From: Thermomicrobiales bacterium
GTDB lineage: Bacteria > Chloroflexota > Chloroflexia > Thermomicrobiales > UBA6265
Assembly: GCA_019637585.1 (NCBI GenBank)
Contig: JAHBVL010000016.1
Coordinates: forward strand, 1-53,956
DNA length: 53,956 bases
Direction of reading: 5' to 3'
Part shown: positions 48 through 51,485 of the stretch, piece after piece
Layout of the letters: each line of letters opens with the position of its first letter
How positions within the stretch are numbered: position 1 is the stretch's first letter
Notes under the pieces: model-generated
The model's database searches: none
Seen by the model: only the letters and a program-made list of their open reading frames with translations
Told to the model about the DNA's origin: nothing
Made by a program: the position numbers and the translations under genes

Positions 48-656
48 CTAGCGAATCTCGAACGAGACCGACTCGAGAAGATCGCTCCCGATCACGATGG
101 CGATCGAGTAGACGCCGCGTTGCGCGCCGCCGAACTGAAACGCAAAGCTCACCCATTGCGAACCAGCGGACGGCGGCGGAGTCTGGTCCACCCAGCTGAT
201 CGGATTGTTGTCTTCGTCACGCCAGACTGCGCTGACCACTTGCCCCGGCTGGATGTTGGCGATCCGGGCCACGGCATAGACGGTCTGGTTGCTGCTGGCC
301 GACACCAACTGCAGCGTGCTTCCCGGTGAACCGTCCGGATCGATCGAGCTGGCCAGGGCCAGATCGGAAATACCGGCGTGTGGTGTGACGGAGGGCATCG
401 GCGAGGCGTCTGGTGTGCCGAAGGTGGCGGCAAAATGCGTTTGCTGGGCGCCCGGCAGCTGAGGTGTCTGCTCTGCTTCCATAGCCTGGAAACGACGGGA
501 ATCGCTGGCCGAACCGGAAGAACAGGCTGCCAGGAAACCGATCATCACGATCAACGCCGCAATGCGGACGAACCTGGCGCTAATCGGCCGGAGCCCGGTA
601 GGAGCCGAAAGCGTCCTGGTACTCGTCTCCGACTTCGAGCGCGGTTTTGTGGACAT
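48..656 (-). CDS. Putative lipoprotein with C-terminal beta-sandwich-like domain
   Basis: The protein (about 202 aa) has a lipoprotein signal: basic residues (ARFVR), a hydrophobic stretch and the lipobox LAAC with Cys45, so it is probably anchored outside the membrane. After a Ser/Pro-rich linker, residues of about 100-200 look like an all-beta, Ig-like domain (TVYAVARIANIQPGQVVSAV). No catalytic motif is visible and I do not recognise the family. The ATG at 656 is the nearest one upstream of the signal peptide. It overlaps the end of the recombinase gene by 77 bases and gives a long n-region, so a start nearer 545-590 is possible. Confidence 0.6.
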   Translation of the reverse strand: MSTKPRSKSETSTRTLSAPTGLRPISARFVRIAALIVMIGFLAACSSGSASDSRRFQAMEAEQTPQLPGAQQTHFAATFGTPDASPMPSVTPHAGISDLALASSIDPDGSPGSTLQLVSASSNQTVYAVARIANIQPGQVVSAVWRDEDNNPISWVDQTPPPSAGSQWVSFAFQFGGAQRGVYSIAIVIGSDLLESVSFEIR

Positions 657-9716: not shown

Positions 9717-9738
9717 TCTTCGCCTGACCGCGGATTGT

Positions 9739-10080
9739 CCCTCACCCCCGACCCCTCTCCCGACCGCGGGATATCCCTCACCCCCAACCCCTCTCCCGAC
9801 CGCGGGATATCCCTCACCCCCGACCCCTCTCCCGACCGCGGGAGAGGGGAGAGGGTCTCCTTCTTCGCGACGTCTTGCTCGCCGTCTTCCCGTCTTGCCG
9901 TCTTGCCGTCTTGCCGTCTCCGTCCTCACCCTGCCCTCTCCCGACCGCGGGATATCCCTCACCCCCGACCCCTCTCCCGACCGCGGGAGAGGGGAGAGGG
10001 TCTACTTCTTCGCGACGTCTTGCTCGCCGTCTTCCCGTCTTCCCGTCTTGCCGTCTCCGTCCTCACCCTGCCCTCCCCCT
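9739..10080. repeat. Tandem and nested GC-rich repeat array
   Basis: A 36-bp unit beginning CCCTCACCCCCGACCCC and ending CGACCGCGGGATAT starts at 9739, 9775 and 9811, and recurs near 9955. The unit at 9811 and the later one both continue into the same ~100-bp tail. That tail has the hairpin CCTCTCCCgaccgcGGGAGAGG, then CTTCTTCGCGACGTCTTGCTCG, and a run of short GTCTTGCC/GTCTTCCC repeats. Related hairpins lie at 6791-6898. The array fills the 433-bp gene-free gap 9717-10149. Spacers are absent, so it is not CRISPR. Confidence 0.85.
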
Positions 10081-50080: not shown

Positions 50081-50089
50081 TAAGTGCGT

Positions 50090-50181
50090 GCGAAACGGTA
50101 TCCTGGATGCCTGCGAAATAGACTCCTAGAACCCTGCGAAACAGACTCCTAGAGTCCCGCGAAATGGTATCCTTGGATCCA
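50090..50181 (+). repeat. Four 23-bp direct repeats in the leader of the DUF4143 ATPase gene
   Basis: Units start at exactly 50090, 50113, 50136 and 50159. Each opens with GCGAAA and contains TCCT about 11 bases on; units 1 and 4 share GGTATCCT and units 2 and 3 share AGACTCCTAGA. The last unit ends at the ATG of the ATPase gene. Even spacing just over two helical turns suggests cooperative binding of a regulator, possibly the ATPase itself; TATCCT could also be -10-like. Confidence 0.8.
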
Positions 50182-51485
50182 TGATGAGCGAATCTGCACG
50201 AGCAAACCCACCTTCCAGCTATCTCCCGCGGGTCGTCGACGGCGAGCTGGACGAGCTTCTGTCTCACTTACCTGCCATTGCCATCGAGGGTGCGAAGGGG
50301 GTCGGGAAATCACGGGCCGCATTGCAGCATGCCACCTCTGTGCGACGCCTCGATGAACCAACGGAGAGGATCATCGCCCAAGCCGACCCGGCCCGGCTGC
50401 TTGAAGGCGAACCGCCAGTCCTCATCGACGAGTGGCAACGCGTCCCGGAGGTTTGGGATCTCGTTCGCCGCGCCGTGGACGACGACAACAGCCCAGGACG
50501 TTTCATCCTCACCGGCTCGGCAGTTCCCGCTGAGTTGCCCGCGCATTCTGGAGCTGGCCGGATCGTCACCGTGCGGATGCGACCACTTTCCCTCGCCGAA
50601 CGGCAGATCGAGAGTCCGCAGATCAGCCTCGGGAGCCTGTTGTCCGGCACACAACCAAATATCCAGGGGCGAACCGACGTGACACTCGAACGCTATGTCG
50701 AGGAGATCATCGCCTCGGGATTCCCGGGTCTTCGCGGTTTGGCCGGACGACCACTACGCGCGCAACTCGACGGCTACATCCGATTGATCACTGAGCGCGA
50801 CTTCCCCGAACTGGGTCACACCGTCCGCAAGCCGGACACGCACATGCGATGGCTGCGCGCCTATGCGGCCGCTACAGCCACCACCGCGTCATACGAAACG
50901 ATTCGCGATGCGGCTACCAGCGACCGCGGCGAAAAGCCCTCCAAATCGGCGACCCAGCCCTACACCGATGTCCTGGAGCGGCTCTGGGTGCTCGACCGGG
51001 TCGACGCCTGGTTGCCGTCTCGCAACGCCATCAGCAGGCTATCGGCTCCGCCAAAACACCATCTCGTCGATCCAGCTCTCGCCGCCAGACTGCTGGGGGC
51101 CGGCGCCGACACTCTGCTCGCTGGCAAGGAACCCGGTCCGGTGATCCCGCGAGACGGCACCCTCCTCGGCGCGCTCTTCGAATCACTTGTTACGCAATCG
51201 GTGCGCGTCTATGCCCAGGCGGCGGAAGCACAGGTTCGCCATCTCCGGACCTATGGTGGCGATCACGAAGTCGATCTGATTGTGGTCCGGGACGACGGCA
51301 AGATCGTCGCAGTCGAAGTCAAGCTGAACCGAACGATCCTGGACGCTGACGTGCGCCATCTGACCTGGCTGCGGGAACGCGCAGGCGATGACCTCCTCGA
51401 CGCCGTCGTGATCTCGACGGGCCCGGAGGCCTACCGCCGGACCGACGGCATTGCGGTCGTTCCGGCGGCCCTCCTCGGGCCCTAG
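50181..51485 (+). CDS. AAA_14/DUF4143 ATP-binding protein
   Basis: A 434-aa protein with an N-terminal AAA ATPase domain (Walker A GAKGVGKS at 37-44; Walker B VLIDEW with Asp83/Glu84; sensor-like FILTGSA). The C-terminal DUF4143 domain ends in a nuclease-like fold (GGDHEVDLIVVRDDGKIVAV followed by EVK, an Asp...Glu-x-Lys arrangement). Such proteins are common, mobile and of unknown role. They are suspected of defence or toxin-antitoxin-like functions. The start is ATG 50181 or the adjacent ATG 50184. It is preceded by four regular 23-bp repeats and appears to stand alone. Confidence 0.9.
   Translation: MMSESARANPPSSYLPRVVDGELDELLSHLPAIAIEGAKGVGKSRAALQHATSVRRLDEPTERIIAQADPARLLEGEPPVLIDEWQRVPEVWDLVRRAVDDDNSPGRFILTGSAVPAELPAHSGAGRIVTVRMRPLSLAERQIESPQISLGSLLSGTQPNIQGRTDVTLERYVEEIIASGFPGLRGLAGRPLRAQLDGYIRLITERDFPELGHTVRKPDTHMRWLRAYAAATATTASYETIRDAATSDRGEKPSKSATQPYTDVLERLWVLDRVDAWLPSRNAISRLSAPPKHHLVDPALAARLLGAGADTLLAGKEPGPVIPRDGTLLGALFESLVTQSVRVYAQAAEAQVRHLRTYGGDHEVDLIVVRDDGKIVAVEVKLNRTILDADVRHLTWLRERAGDDLLDAVVISTGPEAYRRTDGIAVVPAALLGP

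Follow-up and report, generated by a model that had tools for sequence, protein, structure and literature searches.

Plasmid iterons are tandem direct repeats of about 17-22 bp near a promoter, bound by a winged-helix Rep protein that represses itself. A different kind of system is PDC-S01, in which an ATPase is fused to a PD-(D/E)XK domain; it reportedly ranks fourth among the most common defence systems of prokaryotes, and it belongs to the putative phage defence candidates (PDCs), for most of which experimental validation is pending (PMC12988326). Here we describe a locus with features of both, in a stretch of 53,956 bp from a Thermomicrobiales bacterium (contig JAHBVL010000016.1, positions 1 to 53,956), referred to below as the window. 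A gene for an ATPase with a DUF4143 domain is directly preceded by four direct repeats spaced at 23 bp. This array was real, conserved across relatives and tied to one gene clade, and its best explanation is likely autoregulation by the encoded ATPase. The gene family itself was already listed as a defence candidate. The openly licensed literature yielded no description of this 23-bp array and nothing on the regulation of DUF4143, PF13635 or AAA_14 genes.

The motif GCGAAAYRGNMTCCT was found on the + strand at 50090, 50113, 50136 and 50159, with an exact spacing of 23 bp, and the array ended at 50180, one base ahead of the ATG at 50181. Tandem Repeats Finder (TRF) returned the same period. At lag 23 the upstream region had a self-match score of 36; in control windows (170 bp, taken at random from the same loci, best of lags 22-24), the 99th percentile was 10.4. 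Since the score lies so far above this percentile, the array is not a product of chance. The motif match, the TRF period and the lag score confirm the first-pass annotation, which had noted four repeats at exactly this spacing, ending at the start of a DUF4143 ATPase gene. No mismatch-free copy of the motif was present in the window beyond the four in the array. The host genome (3.9 Mb) had no other exact copies; it contained 18 single sites with one mismatch, against 6 for a reversed control in which dinucleotide composition was uncontrolled.

The 23-bp spacing was conserved upstream of related genes. We identified 80 homologues by scanning species genomes and further ones by searching plasmids. 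The 80 upstream regions scored comprised that of the window, 76 belonging to homologues of the genome scan and three to plasmid homologues. The 79 homologues among them shared 37-68% identity with the window protein and came from Actinobacteria, Chlorobi, Gemmatimonadota, Acidobacteria, Firmicutes and others. The best self-match lag was 23 in 70 regions and 46 in 6, and 90% of the regions exceeded the 99th percentile of the control. Mean scores were 19.96 at lag 23 and 12.5 at lag 46, and between 3.4 and 4.3 at every other lag from 12 to 60. The unit itself varied from gene to gene around a common frame of roughly nGCnAAnnGGTAGnGTAG. Of the GCGAAA repeats at 23-bp spacing that the first-pass annotation proposed to look for upstream of relatives, the spacing was conserved, but the GCGAAA word was particular to the gene in the window. 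Slippage readily creates tandem repeats, and the array could in principle be a chance or neutral duplication. An exact 23-bp period in 76 of the 80 loci, kept despite diverged units and with no signal at other lags, refutes this explanation, to which we assign a negligible probability. More distant relatives on plasmids of Collinsella, Bacteroides, Mycobacterium and Spartinivicinus also had 23-bp repeats; the exceptions were Rhizobium, which lacked them, and Thermus, with a weak period of 22. In a metagenome-assembled genome of Corynebacterium glucuronolyticum, an in-frame stop interrupts the homologue, and no array can be detected upstream of it any longer.

Searches with DNA alone led back to the same genes. 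Two GGTAGnGTA words at 23 bp were matched in 2 of 396 actinobacterial genomes, both times immediately 5′ of clade members (>600 bits). This result speaks to specificity and not to completeness, because the pattern fits just one flavour of the repeat. When 16 gene-bearing genomes were scanned for GGTAGnnTAG, extra sites were seen by inspection to precede paralogous DUF4143 genes in three (L063, L036 and L022). In the bacterial genomes searched, the 23-bp array was exclusively linked to this gene clade. The check set by the first-pass annotation, with repeats expected before orthologues and not dispersed elsewhere, was borne out, as blind searches of bacterial genomes returned only this gene. 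Phage contigs, however, carry similar arrays with no DUF4143 match found. In many pairs among Frankia, Actinoplanes and relatives, DNA similarity extended from the array to the stop codon and no further. These homology blocks are consistent with the array and gene forming a conserved or transferred unit, though selection on these parts alone could also explain them.

The encoded protein matched AAA_14 (PF13173; 50.9 bits, cut-off 27) and DUF4143 (PF13635; 90.1 bits, cut-off 28.1). It also matched the PADLOC model for PDC-S01 (PDLC04790) over its full length (E 5.4e-81, residues 13-432), which makes it a member of that family; the suggestion that the system was undescribed does not fully hold. 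In an alignment of 57 sequences, the Walker A and B residues G37, G42, K43, D83 and E84 were invariant, as predicted for an AAA+/P-loop ATPase. D365 and E379 were likewise invariant, K381 was conserved in at least 90% and E363 was also conserved, which would place the C-terminal domain in the PD-(D/E)XK superfamily. An AlphaFold2 model built from the 57 sequences had a mean predicted local distance difference test (pLDDT) score of 93. In a structure search with residues 9-306, the best matches were the archaeal STAND-type ATPases PABY2304 (2qen, Z 15.3) and SSO1545 (2fna, Z 14.0), and NLR/CED-4 was matched more weakly (VIA). The model thus appears to have the NBD-HD-winged helix fold of STAND ATPases, as a fold resemblance only. 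A sequence search of the PDB with the ATPase found no relative, and searches of PHROGs and NCBIfam gave nothing useful. The gene was single-copy in its own assembly, and only one other of 101 genomes (its own and 100 relatives) had a homologue at E 1e-10, with 29% identity. Because of this sporadic presence and the single copy, the gene was probably acquired horizontally.

The array appears to overlap the promoter. TAnnnT was present in 84% of the last units in homologues against 44% of the upstream units. Among 75 loci, 44 had their first in-frame start codon 6-8 nt beyond this hexamer. A TAnnnT followed at this distance by the start is the layout of leaderless promoters as found in Actinobacteria. 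As the last unit overlaps such a hexamer 6-8 nt before the start, the transcript in the window is probably leaderless and the array probably covers its promoter. This arrangement bears on a further explanation, that the array is a catalytic or mobility site (an iteron-like origin, or a target of integration or cleavage) and regulation is secondary. The iteron-like layout, the PD-(D/E)XK motif, the sharp blocks of homology from array to stop codon and the occurrence of homologues on plasmids would all suit such a site. However, the final unit contains a −10 box, nearly every locus has its array ahead of the start codon, the window holds no second copy of the array, and the adjacent gene encodes neither a Rep protein nor a transposase. 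We therefore consider a mobility site very unlikely.

The repeats co-varied with the protein. Repeat similarity was correlated with protein identity (Mantel r 0.41, reached in 0 of 2000 permutations). After regressing out whole-protein identity, the winged helix (217-292) retained a partial r of 0.23, the AAA region 0.04, and other regions had values of about zero or below. A sliding window of 15 residues peaked at 251-265, which is the modelled recognition helix, and 10 of the top 30 co-varying columns fell within 236-268 (p 3e-5). When repeats were permuted within sequence clusters, the observed value was reached in 0 of 1000 cases. When the comparison was restricted to disjoint nearest pairs (35), the winged helix gave a partial rank correlation of 0.32 (p 0.035), the nuclease domain one of 0.03 and the AAA domain one of 0.12. 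Since the repeat sequence tracks the recognition helix of the winged helix beyond overall relatedness, the co-variation suggests that the ATPase binds its own array.

Similar arrays were also found in viral contigs. In IMG/VR, a strict pattern (two AAnGGTAnnGTA) matched 16 contigs at 23-bp spacing, one at 22 and 21 at 24. The matches at 24 lay mostly within long reading frames or simple repeats, and those at 23 mostly in or beside short intergenic gaps. Near-identical contigs reduce the 16 to about nine independent cases, and one of the contigs (L256) has an apparently coding match. The raw count of GGTAGnGTA pairs in viral contigs was not discriminating (42 at 23 bp, 19 at 22 and 67 at 24) and was rejected as a measure. 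Flanking positions that had not been part of this query scored above threshold in 10 matches at 23 bp, and in none at 22 or 24. PF13635 was not matched in 26 viral contigs of the first pattern, many of which are fragments. By inspection, an Hsp20-like gene followed the pair in two related contigs, and elsewhere the neighbours were tRNA-like sequences, a terminase-like gene or convergent genes. Several array-bearing contigs encoded WhiB-like or actinophage-type proteins (inspection and BLAST). Two contigs (L134 and L143) have more GGGATACTATCTGNATAG repeats about 23-24 bp apart to the left of the array, which may form another operator or an inverted one. The DUF4143 gene itself was rare in viral contigs (8 loci, 30-35% identity), and the consensus array had one weak BLAST match among cultured phages.

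Phage contigs with the 23-spaced motif and no DUF4143 match mean that something other than the ATPase may use the motif. They favour the explanation that a conserved host regulator, or an activator responsive to stress or phage, binds the array and that the ATPase is merely the regulated gene. Against this, the repeat sequence follows the recognition helix of the ATPase itself, and the array travels along with a gene that is sporadic (its own and one other of the 101 genomes) and spread over several phyla. Repeats of paralogues in the same genome were barely more alike than background (0.51-0.60 against 0.49), in a comparison too small to decide. A host regulator thus seems unlikely to us. A tentative possibility, which we regard as doubtful, is that the array is a recognition code common to the ATPase and phages: a decoy that titrates the protein, an operator with which phages sense or exploit the ATPase, or a sequence by which infection is sensed. 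On this reading, the orphan copies in viruses, several of which have actinobacterial hosts, would lie close to promoters and the borders of tRNAs. The viral arrays may also be an unrelated class of phage promoters with a similar word.

Autoregulation by the ATPase would work as follows. Its own winged helix would bind the four repeats as a tandem operator, with one protomer or dimer on each 23-bp unit and a cooperative AAA+ oligomer along the promoter. The bound ATPase would block RNA polymerase and keep the level of this nuclease-like protein low, and this autorepression could be lifted by titration of the protein or through its ATP state. With the −10 box inside unit 4 and a transcript whose 5′ end is probably at the ATG or beside it, a block of RNA polymerase is the most likely outcome. 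We favour repression over activation as the sign of regulation. Binding of the array by the ATPase, cooperativity, sign and trigger are what we infer from these patterns. The first-pass annotation linked the repeats to the DUF4143 gene as a cooperative operator or an autoregulatory element, and this idea gains support from the exact 23-bp arrays in about 90% of the clade and from their apparent co-variation with the winged helix. The homology blocks between array and stop codon, and the palindrome and tree clustering of a sister clade described below, also speak for autoregulation. Several points weigh against this explanation. Activation would produce much the same layout as repression. Some loci have no start codon 6-8 nt past the −10 box, so leaderless transcription is not universal. 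The test on disjoint pairs was only modestly significant (p 0.035). The two strongest single columns (358 and 359) lie in the nuclease domain, outside the winged helix, so the signal is not limited to the recognition helix. Finally, the winged helix of STAND-type ATPases is often a switch module and not a DNA reader.

Table 1. Features of the array, the gene and its product, and viral contigs with the motif.
Feature	Position	Strand	Description and basis
Repeat unit 1	50089..50111	+	TGCGAAACGGTATCCTGGATGCC; sequence, exact motif match
Repeat unit 2	50112..50134	+	TGCGAAATAGACTCCTAGAACCC; sequence, exact motif match
Repeat unit 3	50135..50157	+	TGCGAAACAGACTCCTAGAGTCC; sequence, exact motif match
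Repeat unit 4	50158..50180	+	CGCGAAATGGTATCCTTGGATCC; abuts start codon; sequence, exact motif match
Hexamer at candidate −35 position	50145-50150, within unit 3	+	ACTCCT; arithmetic, 23 = 17 + 6; presumed use
Probable −10 box	50168..50173	+	TATCCT (TAnnnT, preceded by TGG), 7 nt before ATG; homologue comparison
AAA_14 + DUF4143 ATPase gene	50181..51485	+	434 aa; Pfam, PADLOC, AlphaFold2 model
Protein domains	residues ~13-140; ~217-292; ~328-434		AAA+ ATPase; winged helix; PD-(D/E)XK-type nuclease-like; Pfam, PADLOC, AlphaFold2 model
Recognition-helix region of winged helix	50931..50978	+	codons 251-266; residue similarity tracks repeat sequence best here
Viral contigs with orphan 23-bp-spaced motif			L125, L127, L128, L129, L132, L134, L143, L146, L148, L154, L164, L255, L257, L258; mostly intergenic; no DUF4143 match in those searched

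Elsewhere in the window, at 9726-10056, a 36-bp tandem array (GACCGCGGGATATCCCTCACCCCCGACCCCTCTCCC) lies within a 145-bp duplication.

A conserved and apparently self-recognised operator offers a direct handle on the regulation of PDC-S01 and predicts what the protein binds. With it, the DNA specificity of the ATPase can be deduced from sequence, and a promoter reporter becomes available with which to look for the trigger. The motif in phage contigs makes it testable how this candidate meets phage. If the code were indeed shared with phages, the array would be both a switch for self-control and a point of trigger or countermeasure in an immune candidate that is among the most frequent of those awaiting validation.

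A sister DUF4143 clade from the same phylum as the window (L086-L114) resembled the window clade in its domain pair and in having a cis element directly before the start codon. Unlike the window clade, it had the 23-bp array in none of 29 upstream regions, and a long inverted repeat just before the gene in 21 of 29 (score ≥9, against a mean of 5.4 after shuffling). This palindrome is single and long, for example CTCGGCTAATTCAAAATCAAACTTTGAATTAGCCGAG. On a tree of 82 rows the operator types were strongly clustered, needing 16 changes where shuffles needed 32.4; on the window's side, 43 of the 48 rows had the direct-repeat type. A single origin of this type is not established, because a few such members lie on the other side.

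The window protein has the domain plan of PDC-S01 and matches it over its full length. The available text on PDC-S01 describes no operator, regulation or mechanism, unlike the locus described here with its array (PMC12988326). PABY2304 and SSO1545 are alike in the ATPase and winged-helix part, but share only 16-20% identity with the window protein and do not cover its nuclease-like domain. Plasmid iterons resemble the array in being tandem repeats near the promoter of a gene for a winged-helix protein. Unlike iterons, the array has no Rep gene beside it, its presumed binder is an AAA+/PD-(D/E)XK protein, and its period stays at 23 bp from phylum to phylum.
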